A program made the position numbers and the translations under genes. DNA of 64,000 nucleotides from Enterococcus faecium. Lineage in GTDB: Bacteria > Bacillota > Bacilli > Lactobacillales > Enterococcaceae. The notes under the pieces are model-generated. The model did not search any database and had not been told where the DNA came from. It saw only the letters and a program-made list of their open reading frames with translations. The stretch spans positions 2,345,001 to 2,409,000 of the forward strand of contig NZ_CP118955.1 of NCBI RefSeq assembly GCF_029023785.1, in the 5' to 3' direction. This document shows positions 1 through 61,841 of this stretch, one piece after another (within the stretch, counting starts at the first letter, position 1; the number at the start of each line of letters is the position of its first letter).

Positions 1-1232
<1,232 letters not shown>

Positions 1233-38215: not shown

Positions 38216-38485
38216 AATTGGTAAAAAAGCTACCCTGTACCAAGAGGTCGTAAAAAAGCTGTCCTGCATCAAGTAATAAGAACAGCCAAACATAAACAGC
38301 TTCTCATGTTTTTCGTTTGGTTGGGGTTATTATCGCAGATGCAAGCTTTTGAACGCCGTGTATAAGAGGTCGTGAAGAAGCCGATTAGTTTCGAGTATGA
38401 AGAAAAATTTTGTGAAAATAGTTTCTCACATTTTTGCATAAATTTGGCTTAATACCGAGAAAATGGTTTTTGAACATCACTTATT
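38216..38485 (-). repeat. Modular hairpin repeat array A (modules 3, 4, remnant of 5; inverted)
   Basis: Read on the minus strand from the terminator at 38489-38527: module 3 at about 38365-38485, module 4 at 38244-38364, then a short remnant of module 5 (38216-38243). Module 4 has stems AAAGCT/AGCTTT, TGCATC/GATGCA, an AATAA/TTATT core and CCAAAC/GTTTGG (38315-38320 with 38286-38291). Modules end with ACGACCTCTT and begin GGCGTTC or GATGTTC, degenerate forms of the common frame. There is no open frame here. The array faces the opposite way to the other three relative to the window. Confidence 0.8.
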
Positions 38486-38488
38486 CAA

Positions 38489-38527
38489 AATAAAAAAAGA
38501 TTGTGACACGAATTTTGTCACAACCTT
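38489..38527 (-). terminator. Terminator after the DUF1827-type gene
   Basis: Stem TTGTGACA/TGTCACAA (38501-38508 with 38516-38523), followed on the minus strand by seven T. Repeat array A begins immediately beyond it. Confidence 0.85.
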
Positions 38528-38609
38528 TAAATGTATTCCTAGAGCAAAGAAGCTAAGCGAAGAAATCCAATTCTGATTATTTATTGTATTTCTTTGTTCA
38601 GCATCCTTG

Positions 38610-43444: not shown

Positions 43445-43475
43445 CAGCTTTCGAAAATAGTCAAACAGCTGTTTA

Positions 43476-43566
43476 TTCACAATTCCTACGCTCGCATAAC
43501 CGATACAGGTACGAAGGGTTTAGAAATAGATTCAATCTCAGCCCAATTGGACTCCCCTTTGTGAGT
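43476..43566 (-). ncRNA. TPP riboswitch (thi box)
   Basis: On the minus strand the conserved elements occur in order: GGGGAG near the 5' end, GGGCTGAGATTG, ACCCTTCGTACCTGTATCGG, TTATGCGAGCGTAGGAATTGTG, closed by a TCACAA/TTGTGA P1 stem. These are the hallmarks of the thiamine pyrophosphate aptamer. It stands between prs and thiT. Confidence 0.95.
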
Positions 43567-43573
43567 TTATTTA

Positions 43574-46111: not shown

Positions 46112-46150
46112 GATAAAAAAATAGATAGACCATAACGGGCCTATCTATTT
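46112..46150 (-). terminator. Terminator after purR (beyond repeat array B)
   Basis: Arms AAATAGATAG (46119-46128) and CTATCTATTT (46141-46150), followed on the minus strand by seven T. purR transcripts would reach it only after crossing the whole repeat array, giving a 3' untranslated region of about 370 nt. Confidence 0.85.
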
Positions 46151-46516
46151 GGTAACCGGTGCTCTCCTGCCAACTCCTCGGTCACAAGTCACACTACTCA
46201 TAAAACATGAAAAGCTGTTTTTTGAAATCGTTTCTTGTGACTTAGAGTTAAACGGTAGGCTTACAACCTCTTCATTAAACGTTTTTCAATCAGCTGACCT
46301 TCGGTATTAGCTCAATAAACGGCAAAATATGAGGAGCAATTTTTCCGTTTATTGAGCTAATACTCAGGACAGGACGCTGATTTCACAACCTCTAGATAAA
46401 CGGTGTTCAAAAGCCAGTTTCTCGGTATTAAGCCAAATTTATGAAAAAATGTGGAAAGCCATTTTCACAAAATTTTTCTTACTACTCGAAACTAAGCGGC
46501 TTTTTCACAACCTCTT
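46151..46516 (+). repeat. Modular hairpin repeat array B (modules 1-2-3)
   Basis: Read on the plus strand from the terminator: module 1 about 46151-46271, module 2 about 46272-46393, module 3 about 46394-46516. Module 2 contains a perfect 18-bp stem (46305-46322 with 46345-46362) plus outer AATCAGC/GCTGATT. Module 1 pairs CTGCC/GGTAG, AACTC/GAGTT and GTCACAAG/CTTGTGAC. Module 3 pairs AAAAGCC/GGCTTTT and AGTTTC/GAAACT. Junctions carry CACAACCTCT followed by TAAACGGTGTTC. The last base triplet coincides with the purR stop codon. No coding capacity. Confidence 0.85.
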
Positions 46517-57911: not shown

Positions 57912-59153
57912 TCATTTTCTTAAAAGCTGTTTTCTCAAAAGATCAAATCCTTGCATAACCGCATTATATCTGATAGCAGCACGATCTCTGGCAAAGTGAT
58001 ATTTTTCCGAAACCACGCCGTCTTTAGATGAAATAGCGATCCATACTGTTCCTGCAGATTGACCTTCTAACGTGTCCGGTCCAGCCACTCCGGTGAAAGC
58101 TACACTGTAATCTGTTCTTGCTATCTCACGTGCTTGAATGGCCATCTGCTCCACACATTCTTTGCTGACTGTTCCATATTCTGCTAATAGCTCCGGATCA
58201 ATCTCCAGAAAACCAGCTTTTGTTTGGAGCGAGTAGGTAACGAATCCGCCTGGAAATACTTCAGATACACCAGCAATGTCGCCTAATGCGGCTTGGAAGG
58301 CGCCGGCTGTCAAACTTTCCGCTGCTGTTACAGTCTGCTTGTTTTCTTTCAGTAGTTCCACTACGACTTTTGCTAGCGAATTATCATCGCCGTATCCATA
58401 AAAATATTCCCCTACTCGTTCTTGGATTTTTTCTTCTAATGCTAAAAGAGCTTGATTCCCTGCCTGAACATCATTTGTTTTCACTGTCAGTCGTAATGTC
58501 ACTTCATTTGGTTTGGCATATGGTGCGATCGTTGGATTGATCTGTGTCTCAATCAGATCTTTTAGCTCAGTGACCAGTCGCGATTCACCAATCCCATAAA
58601 AGCGCAAAACTTTAGAAATTAGTTTTTCTTCAGAAGGAAAACGTTCCTCTAGTAAAGGACGTACTTGTTCCACAAACATTGGTTTCAACTCATTAGGCGG
58701 ACCGGGAAGAAGGATATACGCATGTGTATCTGTTTGATAAAAAGTCCCTAAAGCAAGCCCTGTACGATTTGGTAGAGGAACCCCGCCTTCGATAATCTGG
58801 GACTGTTGCAGATTGTTTTTGGTCATTTTTCGATGGGTTGTTTCAAAATATGCCAATAATTTTTTGTATCCTTCCGTATTTTGTATGAGAGACTTACCGA
58901 GGTGAGCCGCAGTTGCTTCTTTTGTCAGGTCATCTTCTGTCGGTCCTAATCCGCCACATAAGAGTATGAGTTCACTTCTTGTTTCAGCTAGAGCAATCAA
59001 CTCTTCTAAACGCTGCTGATTATCTCCTACAACTGTTTGATAATAAACTTCGATACCTAGATCAGCTAGCTGTTCTGACAAGAAAGTGGCATTCGTATTC
59101 ACGACTTGTCCTAGTAAAAGTTCTGTTCCGACAGCTATTATTTCTGCTTTCAT
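57912..59153 (-). CDS. cinA: CinA family competence/damage-inducible protein
   Basis: 413 residues with two domains: an N-terminal MoaB/MogA-like domain ([32 protein letters not shown]) and a C-terminal CinA domain ([29 protein letters not shown]) of the nicotinamide-nucleotide amidase type. In pneumococcus CinA ties RecA to the membrane during transformation. The cinA-recA order is conserved here. The ATG has AAGGGAGCGGG upstream. The repeat array C and a terminator lie between it and pgsA. Confidence 0.93.
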
Positions 59154-59173
59154 TACTTCCCGCTCCCTTATAT

Positions 59174-59179
59174 AGTATA
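59174..59179 (-). promoter_or_regulatory. Possible -10 of cinA
   Basis: TATACT on the minus strand in a very A/T-rich stretch just before cinA; no good -35. Proposed because the terminator at 59201-59251 would otherwise cut cinA off from pgsA. Confidence 0.3.
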
Positions 59180-59200
59180 CGCTGTATTTTTATATTTTTT

Positions 59201-59251
59201 TATTTAAAAAGAGGGCAAGGAGCTGTGACAAAAATCTTGTCACAGCTCCTT
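59201..59251 (-). terminator. Terminator between pgsA (array C) and cinA
   Basis: Perfect 15-bp arms (59217-59231 with 59237-59251; core GGAGCTGTGACAA) followed on the minus strand by a T-rich stretch. It marks the first end of repeat array C. Confidence 0.85.
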
Positions 59252-59256
59252 GTTCC

Positions 59257-59392
59257 AAATAAACAGTGTTCTCCTGCCAAAACCTCGGTCATAAGTCACA
59301 ATATACATAAAACATGAAAAGCTGTTTTTTGAAATTATCCCTTGTGACTCAGAGTTAGACGGCAGGCTCACAACCTCTCCACTAAACGATAC
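59257..59392 (+). repeat. Modular hairpin repeat array C (module 1 and start of another)
   Basis: Read on the plus strand from the terminator: AATAAACAGTGTTC, then module 1 (to about 59378) ending CACAACCTCT, then TAAACG of a following module cut short at the pgsA stop codon (59393-59395). Pairing CTGCC/GGCAG and GTCACAA/TTGTGAC is kept. The core ACATGAAAAGCTGTTTTTTGA is shared with array B module 1. On the pgsA transcript it would form a structured 3' untranslated region. Confidence 0.85.
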
Positions 59393-59971
59393 TTACATTG
59401 ATCCTTTGAACACACCGCTGTTTTTGATGAAGTAATCCACACCTGAATAGATAGTAAAGATCAGACAAGCATAAAGCATGATTTGATCTACTGGAATACC
59501 GATCAGGCTGAATGGGATATTATTGATAAACAGCAAGATAATAGCAACCATTTGTGTAGCCGTCTTGACTTTTCCCGGCCAAGCTGCAGCCATGACTTCT
59601 CCATGTTCGACAAGTAGTAAACGCAAGCCTGTGACGGCTAATTCACGACAGACAATGATCGCTACTACCCAACCAGGGGCCTTTCCTTGGTCAACCAACA
59701 TGATAAAAGCAGTCATAACTAGCATTTTATCTGCCAACGGGTCCGCAAACTTGCCAAAATTAGTGACAAGGCCTCGCGCACGGGCAATTTTTCCATCTAA
59801 CCAGTCTGTGATACTAGCTAAAGCAAAAATAACTGCACCTACTAGCTGTGTGACAGCCAGTGTGGTGTCTCCTACGTTAAATTGTCCCCAATCTAAAGGT
59901 AAACCTACAACCAAAATGAAAATCGGGATCATACAAATTCTAAGTACAGTTAATTTATTTGGTAAATTCAC
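59393..59971 (-). CDS. pgsA: CDP-diacylglycerol--glycerol-3-phosphate 3-phosphatidyltransferase
   Basis: Makes phosphatidylglycerol phosphate, the precursor of PG, cardiolipin and lysyl-PG (the MprF product). 192 residues with four to five TM segments and the CDP-alcohol phosphotransferase signature DWLDGKIARARGLVTNFGKF followed by ADPLADK. The start is GTG at 59969-59971 with AAAGGAGTCG upstream. It belongs to the ymfF-ymfH-rodZ-pgsA-cinA-recA neighbourhood. Array C touches its stop codon. Confidence 0.95.
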   Translation of the reverse strand: MNLPNKLTVLRICMIPIFILVVGLPLDWGQFNVGDTTLAVTQLVGAVIFALASITDWLDGKIARARGLVTNFGKFADPLADKMLVMTAFIMLVDQGKAPGWVVAIIVCRELAVTGLRLLLVEHGEVMAAAWPGKVKTATQMVAIILLFINNIPFSLIGIPVDQIMLYACLIFTIYSGVDYFIKNSGVFKGSM

Positions 59972-60099
59972 ACTATCGACTCCTTTCTTCCCTATTCTAC
60001 GTGACTATCAGCGAAGTTTCCACCGATATTATTTACTTTTCCAAATGAATTTATTCAAAGGAGTATTTTTATTGAAATTGATCTTTTTGAATTAACGAA

Positions 60100-60139
60100 G
60101 AAGGACCGCGACACAGATTTGTCACGATCCTTCTTTTTT
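60100..60139. terminator. Terminator-like hairpin between rodZ and pgsA
   Basis: Arms GAAGGA-(CC)-GCGACA and TGTCAC-GATCCTTC (60100-60133). The T run of six is on the plus-strand side, while the flanking genes are read on the minus strand, where the exit is weaker (TTCTTCG). It may therefore be leaky for rodZ-pgsA. Confidence 0.6.
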
Positions 60140-60179
60140 ATACCTACAAGTAAACAGATGCGTAAACTAATTTATACGA

Positions 60180-61064
60180 TCATTCTGCGTATTGAAGAGT
60201 AAGGTTCACATTTTTTGGACTCTGATTGTTTTCCCCTGGATTAACTGGTACGGATTCTCCATTCGCTTTGATCGTTGCATTGCTTGCTGCACCAATCGTG
60301 ATGGTCGCATTTGTTGCTGTTTCCGGTAACACGGTACTCTGTGTTTCATTTGCTGCCAGTGTCCCTTGATAAACATAGGCATTGTCTACTAGCACACCTA
60401 ACCATACACGATTGACAGCAGTAAATTCAAGGGTTACAGGCTTGGTAGCGTCTGTGATATTTACTGCGATGGCACTGCCAGAATCTTCTCCTGTAGCTAT
60501 TGCCATTTTCTTTTCTTCACTTGATTTTGTTGTTGATTCTACTGTAGAAGACTCTTTGGTCTGCGTGCTTTGCTCTGAGGAAGAGGACTCCTCGACTGAT
60601 CCTTCTACTTTAAGCGAAGAAGCTGTGTCTCCGATTATTGGATCAGCTTGACGATCTTGCCAAGTCATATAGCCCACGACAACGACAATCGCCAAAGCAA
60701 CCAATCCTAATAAAATGACAGGAAGACTTGTCCAAAAGCGACTTGGATGCGATTCTTCCTGATGCATTGCTTTTCTAGAAGTACTTACTGTTTCAGGCTG
60801 CGGACGTTCAGGGACCGATCCTGTCAATTTGCTTTTCCCATCAAAAACATCGACTAAATGGTCTCCATCTTCTCCTACAGCTTCAGCGTATTGCCGAATA
60901 AATGCCCGCACGTAAAATTTACCAGGCAATTGGTCAAAATCATCATTGTCGATTGCTTCCAAATAACGTTTTTGAATTTTTGTAATCTGCTGTAATTCAT
61001 CTAAAGATATTTTTTTATTCAGGCGTGCTTGCCGTAATTTTTCTCCGATGGTTTCAAAAGCCAC
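60180..61064 (-). CDS. rodZ: RodZ-like cell-shape protein with helix-turn-helix
   Basis: Links the elongation machinery to the membrane. 294 residues: N-terminal Cro-type HTH (IGEKLRQARLNKKISLDELQ; ITKIQKRYLEAIDNDDFDQLPG), a Ser/Pro-rich linker, one TM (about 118-138), a Ser/Glu-rich stretch, and the C-terminal DUF4115 domain. I chose GTG at 61062-61064 because GGAGAAGAT lies 6-10 nt upstream; a TTG 17 codons earlier has no ribosome site. Corresponds to B. subtilis YmfM, upstream of pgsA. Repeat array D separates it from ymfH. Confidence 0.9.
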   Translation of the reverse strand: MAFETIGEKLRQARLNKKISLDELQQITKIQKRYLEAIDNDDFDQLPGKFYVRAFIRQYAEAVGEDGDHLVDVFDGKSKLTGSVPERPQPETVSTSRKAMHQEESHPSRFWTSLPVILLGLVALAIVVVVGYMTWQDRQADPIIGDTASSLKVEGSVEESSSSEQSTQTKESSTVESTTKSSEEKKMAIATGEDSGSAIAVNITDATKPVTLEFTAVNRVWLGVLVDNAYVYQGTLAANETQSTVLPETATNATITIGAASNATIKANGESVPVNPGENNQSPKNVNLTLQYAE

Positions 61065-61136
61065 TCGTTCATCTTCTCCAGTCTGTTTGATTCTCCGAAG
61101 CATCTGCTGTTGCAACGAAAGACGTTATGTTTGGGT

Positions 61137-61161
61137 GCTGTGACAAAAGTCATGTCACAGC
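61137..61161. other. Terminator-type hairpin at the head of repeat array D
   Basis: Arms GCTGTGACA/TGTCACAGC, the same core as the terminator of pgsA. On the minus strand no T run follows, so termination toward rodZ would be weak; on the plus strand six T follow. Confidence 0.7.
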
Positions 61162-61173
61162 TCCTTTTTTCCG

Positions 61174-61665
61174 AATAAACATTGTTCTCCTGCCAACTCC
61201 TCTGTCACAAGTCACAATATCCAATAAATATAAGAAGCTGTTTTTTGAACTTGTTCCTTGTGACTCGGAGTTAAACGGCAGGCTCACGACCTCTTTCTTA
61301 AACGGTGTTCAATCAGCTGTTCCTCGGTATTAGCTCAAAAACCGGCAAAATATAAGGAGATATTTTTCCGTATGTTTCTCTAATACTCAGGTCAAAACGC
61401 TGATTTCACAACCTCTTCCTTAAACGGTGTTCAAAAGCTTGCATCTGCGGTAATAAGTCCAACCAAGTTAAAAACATTAAGAAGCTGTTTTTACTTGGCT
61501 GTTCTTATTACTTGATGCAGGGCAGCTTTTTCACAACCTCTTGGTACACGGTGTTCCAGAAGTAGCTTCTTCGGCAATAAGCCGAAATATCACAAAAATT
61601 TGAGAAGCAATTTTCGTAAATTCCTTCTTATTTCTTGAAGCTGACCACTTCTGTCACAACCTCTT
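61174..61665 (+). repeat. Modular hairpin repeat array D (modules 1-2-4-5)
   Basis: Longest array. Module 1 about 61174-61295, module 2 about 61296-61416, module 4 about 61417-61541, module 5 about 61542-61665. Module 4 pairs 61434-61439/61524-61529, 61440-61445/61514-61519, 61450-61457/61504-61511 and 61463-61468/61493-61498. Module 5 pairs 61557-61563/61647-61653 and 61564-61569/61637-61642. Module 2 is degenerate: only about two thirds of the 18-bp stem of array B is kept. All share the frame (TAAACGGTGTTC ... TCACAACCTCTT), a CGGTAATAAG-like left arm and a GAAGCTGTTTTT-like apical loop. No coding capacity. Confidence 0.85.
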
Positions 61666-61841
61666 TGATTACTTCGTTTGATTTTATTTTAATATAAGTT
61701 GATTAAAAGAGAGCATGATTTGTTTTATTTTCTCACTAATTTTTCCAACACAACTAAGAATACCATAAAAGCTGATTTTGGAGGAGGTTCCTACTACAAG
61801 TCTAAAACGAAATTTAAGACTTTTCCTCATAAAATACTGGT
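61666..61841. other. Rest of the ymfH-rodZ gap
   Basis: A/T-rich spacer between array D and the ymfH stop codon. One weak inverted repeat (AAGTCT...AGACTT near 61797-61822) without a T run. I see no open frame and no convincing terminator. Confidence 0.5.

Follow-up and report, generated by a model that had tools for sequence, protein, structure and literature searches.

Arrays of hairpin modules, very probably of the EFAR repeat family, at gene ends of an Enterococcus faecium genome

Four intergenic regions of the window, the whole stretch of 64,000 nucleotides of Enterococcus faecium DNA analysed here, carry arrays of hairpin modules that very probably belong to the known MITE-like EFAR repeat family of enterococci. 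Comparison with the sister species Enterococcus lactis suggests that arrays of this kind may replace gene terminators and may gain, lose and swap whole units. The genome holds at least 189 such structured units, mostly at gene ends, and the module string differs between the two species at 22 of the 25 sites compared against a flank divergence of about 5%. If the arrays affect termination or mRNA life they would generate regulatory differences among enterococci on a large scale and quickly, and the sites compared lend themselves to testing how such repeats come to occupy terminators and trade their units.

Architecture of the arrays in the window

The first-pass annotation of the window reported four intergenic arrays of units of about 120 bp. 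This was borne out, arrays A, B, C and D together comprising ten modules. Array D (61137-61665) is built of a leader hairpin and four modules of 118-121 bp each, all on the plus strand. The leader (61134..61164) is a short hairpin, GGTGCTGTGACA...TGTCACAGCTCC, with a run of T after it; it is terminator-like by inspection, fold and terminator scan, and a close copy is found at the equivalent place in E. lactis. The modules were assigned by fold and clustering to type 1 (module 1, 61177..61295, outer stem CTGCC/GGCAG), type 2 (module 2, 61300..61417, AATCAGC/GCTGATT), type 7 (module 3, 61422..61542, AAAAGCT/AGCTTTT) and type 6 (module 4, 61546..61665, CAGAAGT/ACTTCTG). Their apex repeats are spaced by 122, 125 and 123, and module 4 is the sole one of the four that is also present in E. 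lactis. A 68-aa ORF overlaps the start of the array.

Array C has a single type 1 module (59261..59379, plus strand; fold and clustering) and a leader hairpin on the minus strand (59216..59252) that obtained a terminator-like score on this strand in the terminator scan. The three modules of array B (46154-46516, plus strand) are of type 1 (module 1, 46154..46272), type 2 (module 2, 46277..46394), which has a perfected inner palindrome and is absent from E. lactis, and type 5 (module 3, 46398..46516, AAAAGCC/GGCTTTT). The leader of array B (46120..46149, plus strand) is an unrelated hairpin, AATAGATAGACC...GGCCTATCTATT, that is found also in E. lactis. Array A (38242-38480) lies on the minus strand, with its leader hairpin AAAGGTTGTGAC...GTCACAATCTTT at 38496..38528 followed by module 1 of type 5 (38364..38480) and module 2 of type 7 (38242..38361). 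A separate short hairpin thus precedes each of the four arrays, a feature that was not listed in the first-pass annotation.

The motif TCACAACCTCTT, with up to 2 mismatches, has 18 matches in the window against a chance mean of 7.3 (0 of 100 shuffles reach 18), and AAACGGTGTTC has 31 against a shuffle mean of 18.3, with one shuffle having as many. At the gathering score no Rfam family covers the arrays, the hits to array D being microRNA models far below this score. Elsewhere in the window Rfam identifies a TPP riboswitch (43466-43568, minus strand) and part of a 16S rRNA gene (1-1231, minus strand).

Copy number, module types and order

More copies beyond the window had been predicted, and the genome search found them: at least 150 places match a covariance model built from the ten modules (R1). 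Across the whole genome TCACAACCTCTT occurs 291 times with up to 1 mismatch, against 29 occurrences of the reversed control. A profile search of 80 genome stretches and the window delivered 210 entries, which are distributed over 87 arrays and comprise 189 full modules. The number of full modules per array is one in 29 arrays, two in 27, three in 14, four in 13 and six in 2, the remaining 2 arrays holding fragments only; 56 of the 87 have thus two or more full modules, up to six.

Types can be distinguished by their stems, as had been described, with the difference that clustering yields six main types genome-wide where five had been counted in the window. The clusters comprise 63, 53, 36, 30, 21 and 4 entries, plus three odd entries. 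The modules had also been called ordered, which holds only to some extent. Among the 56 multi-module arrays, type 1 stands first in 17 (8.6 expected; a count reached in 0 of 5000 shuffles) and the last position is held by type 6 in 11 (5.2 expected, P 0.0024), while type 7 is first in 10, fewer than the 17.2 expected (P 0.0076); these are three of twelve comparisons with uncorrected P values, and arrays may share ancestry.

Module fold and compensated pairing

A fold into one long hairpin is found for nine of the ten window modules. The exception to this earlier claim is module 4 of array D, which keeps its outer stem and whose lowest-energy fold has two inner hairpins. The outer stems were also named correctly, but the statement that each pairs perfectly is too strong since module 1 of array B has one G-U pair and module 1 of array A has mismatches.

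Differences between stems had been proposed to be compensated, and this was confirmed in modules of the window's genome and of other genomes. RNAalifold found 38 consensus pairs in the ten window modules, 26 of them with at least one double-sided compensated change. Larger sets were examined in alignments that are fitted to the covariance model and therefore lean towards it, with statistics that ignore relatedness. In 142 distinct modules of the window's genome 91.8% of the pair cells are standard pairs, against 70.4% after shuffling and at most 48.3% with slid partners, and covariation scores 0.536, compared with 0.177 for shuffles and no more than 0.106 for slid partners. The number of further pair types (78 vs 75.9 shuffled, with 126 of 500 shuffles as high) is the sole one of five measures that is not above its control in this set. 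A set of 57 distinct modules, drawn from 43 loci in other genomes, has 91.0% of cells paired (67.8% shuffled, 48.7% slid), a covariation score of 0.581 (0.171 shuffled, 0.101 slid) and values above every shuffle in all five measures.

Conservation of the unpaired columns equals or exceeds that of the paired ones (1.30 vs 1.12 bits, with similar sequences down-weighted to an effective number of about 7). Among the stretches of highest conservation are TAAAC and GTGTTC at the module start, the bend CTCGG, the terminal CACAACCTCTT and parts of the apex. The first-pass interpretation, selection on the shape of RNA or single-stranded DNA, stands in that the shape is conserved and the changes are compensated, but compensation alone is no proof because template switching and exchange between arrays can also generate such changes. 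Selection on module shape is the likely, though unproven, source of the compensated changes.

Leader hairpins and position at gene ends

The region ahead of the first module was studied by a direct inverted-repeat scan in the 73 arrays whose first module is intact. A strong inverted repeat is present within the 65 bases before this module in 38 of the 73 arrays, against 0 of 73 after one shuffle each; the other 35 have no leader above the strict cut. T after the core or A before it occupies at least 5 of 8 bases in 32 of the 38 strong leaders, and both do so in 16 (an A/T count made without a control). Many leaders therefore look like intrinsic terminators, sometimes in both directions, as judged from their hairpins and A/T tracts. 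Note that a terminator scan of positions 59100-61800 found the two leaders there and no more sites than in shuffled sequence (2 vs 1.9). An RNAfold estimate of a leader in 70 of the 73 arrays was dropped, neighbouring structures having been merged in it.

The gene on the tail side reads into the array in 60 of 78 arrays, and in 42 of these 60 its stop codon lies within 30 bp of the tail. Genes were defined for this count as ORFs of at least 70 aa, and 9 of the 87 arrays, with no ORF on one side of the stretch, were left unclassed. Raising the minimum ORF to 100 or 120 aa gives 61 or 58 read-in arrays, respectively, with 42 within 30 bp either way. Arrays are flanked by convergent gene pairs in 25 cases and by divergent pairs in 3 (P 2.7e-5, assuming that both kinds of pair are equally common). 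Between genes of the same direction the array is antisense in 35 cases and sense in 15 (P 0.0066).

Comparison with Enterococcus lactis

Twenty-five sites were compared at which the window's genome has an array and both flanks fall in one E. lactis stretch with a gap under 1500 bases. Site 78, whose gap is 3.4 kb, was left out, fragments were excluded from the module strings, and sites 44 and 45 are neighbouring arrays of one locus counted as two of the 25. For array D, whose flanks fall in two E. lactis stretches, the comparison had to be made by hand. Mean flank identity over the 25 sites is 95%, and the full-module string is identical in E. lactis at 3 of them. At 6 sites E. lactis has no full module, three of these holding a fragment.

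Differing sites do so by whole modules or by the whole array, as scored, in 14 of 22 cases, and the other 8 involve fragments or fusions. Strings that differ by whole modules are, for example, 2-1-7-6 vs 2-7-6, 1-2-5 vs 2-5, 1-2-5 vs 1-5 and 1-2-7 vs 2-7. Sites 0, 41, 74 and 77 have whole modules in only one of the two species, as does array D, where the four modules of the window face one in E. lactis. Sites 37 and 38 carry different modules within the same flanks in the two species. The fused module of site 73 and the chimera of site 39 count against exchange by whole modules. Of the E. lactis modules, 28 are of a type shared with the counterpart site. The counterpart is the closer match for 11 of them, and a module at another site of the window's genome for the other 17; near ties account for several of these 17, the count has no null, and some such cases are expected at up to about 60 copies per type.

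In place of the array of the window's genome, an unrelated hairpin is found in E. lactis at sites 42, 46 and 75 (the last being array C), a small number of cases. The A-run before and the T-run after are kept at site 46 and the stem-loop between them differs; at site 42 short stem ends on either side are identical or almost so; at site 75 the part that differs reaches beyond the hairpin. No target duplication was seen by eye at these three sites. Their organization fits replacement of a terminator stem by the array and would fit loss in E. lactis too, since sites were picked by the presence of an array in the window's genome, so that a loss in E. lactis looks the same as a gain here. In the reverse comparison, none of the three E. 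lactis arrays typed is missing from the window.

Origin and maintenance of the arrays

The reading that we favour, and hold to be reasonably probable, is that EFAR-type elements replaced the stem-loops of terminators and that whole modules were then exchanged by recombination. It starts from what is observed directly: the anatomy, copy number and distribution of the arrays, their compensated pairing and position at gene ends, the species differences and the hairpins at the three array-less sites. The element would be a non-autonomous, MITE-like mosaic of a short leader hairpin and one to six modules of about 122 bp, each a hairpin. It would replace the stem-loop of a gene's intrinsic terminator, the direction of change being presumed to be insertion and not loss. 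The element's own leader, a putative terminator, would then end transcription, and insertion would therefore do little harm. Modules may later be gained, lost, duplicated and swapped by recombination within and between arrays, the predicted exchange point being the shared junction of CACAACCTCTT, a few bases and TAAACGGTGTTC. Mobility would depend on a trans-acting transposase. The sequences compared show no active transposition, and no transposase could be tied to the family, the Y1 family being the one tested.

The modules could instead be kept as RNA, as a structured 3' UTR of the tail-side gene that would be read on the strand opposite to the module orientation and would protect or process the mRNA, a possibility that we regard as doubtful. 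It agrees with the 60 of 78 tail-side genes that read into the array and with unpaired positions being no less conserved than paired ones. One-sided departures from pairing point the same way, with 122 distinct A-C events against 87 G-U events on the plus strand when other genomes are added (P 0.018) and 87 against 63 in the window's genome alone (P 0.06); A-C on the plus strand corresponds to G-U on the other strand, which is the one read from the tail-side gene. However, this asymmetry is weak and its statistics ignore ancestry. The excess of G>A over C>T is about equal at unpaired positions, therefore only A-T pairs carry the strand signal, and 133 of the 142 rows have a plus-strand G-U at one of the consensus pairs. 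We treat the strand asymmetry as a lead, not a result. The compensated changes might, on the other hand, be mutational and not selected if template switching copied one arm to the other and exchange between arrays spread the product. Perfected palindromes in module 2 of array B and in the E. lactis type 2 module of site 0, where 42 of the 49 type 2 modules here have imperfect arms, are of the kind that such copying would leave, and there are signs of exchange between arrays. Yet only 1 of the 49 type 2 modules of the window's genome, that of array B, has the perfected pattern, and the internal loops and apex are unpaired and conserved across types although free correction would tend to erase them. 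We consider this mutational origin unlikely.

Two enzymatic routes have to be weighed against homologous recombination as the means of exchange. By analogy with integron attC sites, modules might be cassettes moved as folded single strands by a recombinase that reads their structure. The different modules within the same flanks at sites 37 and 38, the conserved ends and apex with variable stems, and the excess of type 1 in first and type 6 in last position could all be accommodated in this way. The same data are, however, explained by homologous recombination, and an integron-like polarity was discarded because comparison of the sites by eye reveals no clear polar pattern, either end or both being possibly kept; movement as cassettes is thus very improbable. 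A resident Y1 transposase of the IS200/IS605 type (RAYT-like), moving the modules as REPs are moved, is more improbable still. Hairpin repeats at gene ends would suit it, and Y1 genes occur in the window's genome, with four Pfam Y1_Tnp matches, two of them neighbouring halves of apparently one broken copy, and in 25 of 35 genomes of relatives. Nevertheless, 6 of the 10 genomes without Y1 hold modules (48, 38, 28, 19, 6 and 2 matches), and Y1 is present in two of the six genomes that lack modules. On the chromosome, Y1 matches occur at two places, at distances of 44 kb and 4 kb from the nearest array examined, and another copy is on contig C2. The consensus module ends, which read TAAACGG and CCTCTT over a length of 119-121, lack the GTAG tag. 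A resident Y1 transposase as a required mobiliser was ruled out since Y1 does not track the presence of modules. The broadest proposal, that 3' ends in Enterococcaceae carry hairpin cassettes whose 122-bp modules are swapped at terminators by a structure-reading enzyme and act as 3' UTR RNA of the opposite strand, is judged quite improbable as a whole.

Relation to known repeat families

Whether the family had already been described was left open in the first-pass annotation; it very probably is EFAR, an identification by kind and architecture. De Gregorio et al. are said to have reported in 2009 that EFAR elements have 42-650 bp, mostly 170, and fall into 16 sequence types. These elements reportedly insert into stem-loops, where most of the target is lost and parts of the stem are kept. 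EFAR elements "in Enterococci" are counted among bacterial MITEs in the available passages of a later source citing that work (PMC3733652), and Efa-1 of E. faecalis is described, likewise in part of its source, as a pair of adjacent stem-loops with a length of 163 (PMC2267715). Efa-1 and EFAR are probably one family. The likeness to the arrays is that of palindromic enterococcal repeats in many copies whose basic element has two stem-loops and about 163-170 bp, whereas multi-module arrays make up 56 of the 87 here and six main types are distinguished, features that the 2009 paper may already describe. The passages of the literature searched gave no sequence-level description of EFAR, and those of the E. 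faecium TX16 genome paper (PMC3433357) and of a Grad-seq paper (PMC10117718) held nothing on such repeats.

The architecture of an E. faecalis-labelled contig provides a link to EFAR. In this stretch (L331) the leader has 42 bp and the element 170 bp, with two adjacent hairpins in the fold. This architecture fits EFAR, therefore the kind was already known. L331 is one of five stretches of four phage-collection records, all five of which match R1, four having been chosen by a BLAST match to a module. The host is E. faecalis for two records (three stretches), and none is given for the other two (Enterococcus phage IME_EF3). Among the other stretches the leader is the same in L330, a variant in L334 and another hairpin in L333, with none clear in L332. 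The closing stem is GGTG/CAC.ACC here vs CGGGA/TCCCG in the E. faecalis-labelled contigs. Possible terminal inverted repeats, AAGAGGTTGTGAC and GTCACAACCTCTT, are present in some leaders and tails, many leaders among those listed having GGACTGTGAC instead. Note that partial modules at C1:641371-641476 and 2515843-2515948 follow TAAACGGCGGAAG, akin to the start in E. faecalis-labelled contigs, and have a different leader (GAGCGTGGGAC), so that two sub-families may meet in one genome.

Other bacterial repeats share single features with the arrays. The E. faecium loci VNTR-7 to VNTR-10 have tandem units of about 121 bp, a likeness in unit length. These loci are named as part of MLVA schemes in passages of PMC6419805 and PMC6615243. 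BOX of pneumococcus is modular with a variable number of inner units, and BOX, RUP and SPRITE are over-represented between convergent genes, SPRITE being terminator-like, in the passages available of PMC3049150; as far as these descriptions go, a terminator-like leader combined with modules that are full hairpins in one element is not described there. REP/BIME palindromic repeats are mostly located downstream of coding regions, according to part of PMC3733652, and the units of the REP/BIME-RAYT system measure 20-40 bp against the about 120 bp of the modules.

Distribution across organisms

All 15 genomes of the genus that were searched match the module model, and the number of matching places per genome ranges from 29 to at least 150. 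Among 34 named enterococcal, vagococcal and tetragenococcal genomes 28 match at E 1e-4, the six without a match at this threshold being Enterococcus sp. CU9D, Enterococcus sp. RIT-PI-f, Candidatus Tetragenococcus pullicola, E. hermanniensis, Tetragenococcus halophilus and E. casseliflavus. Of 148 genomes sampled from the order and searched under stricter filters 27 match, 16 in the family (own genus included) and 11 outside it. The pgsA neighbourhood has 14 matches in 10 of 80 named loci, which indicates that arrays C and D are not generally conserved at their positions. Among the named loci listed, the closest one comes from Enterococcus lactis CCM 8412, with a pgsA protein 98% identical and regional DNA 94-97% identical.

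An array with its leader matches 131 plasmid records, 105 of which are from Enterococcus, and module 2 of array D alone matches 5, three of these from E. faecium. A phage or plasmid origin of the arrays was set aside after examination of the plasmid matches and inspection of phage records. Plasmids CP069367, CP069368 and CP069369, named Klebsiella pneumoniae, carry enterococcal modules and are possibly enterococcal sequence under a wrong name. Seven listed plasmids of Lactiplantibacillus and Lacticaseibacillus share the same part of the array and the same level of identity, which suggests one transferred segment. Phage-named records that match the repeat comprise 217 with a Listeria name (many being "Listeria phage LM 4-11-1 / 4-14-1") and 21 with an Enterococcus name. 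The four that were opened (OR846588, OR846624, PQ520155 and PQ520371) are marked UNVERIFIED, carry no annotation and look like bacterial contigs filed as phage.
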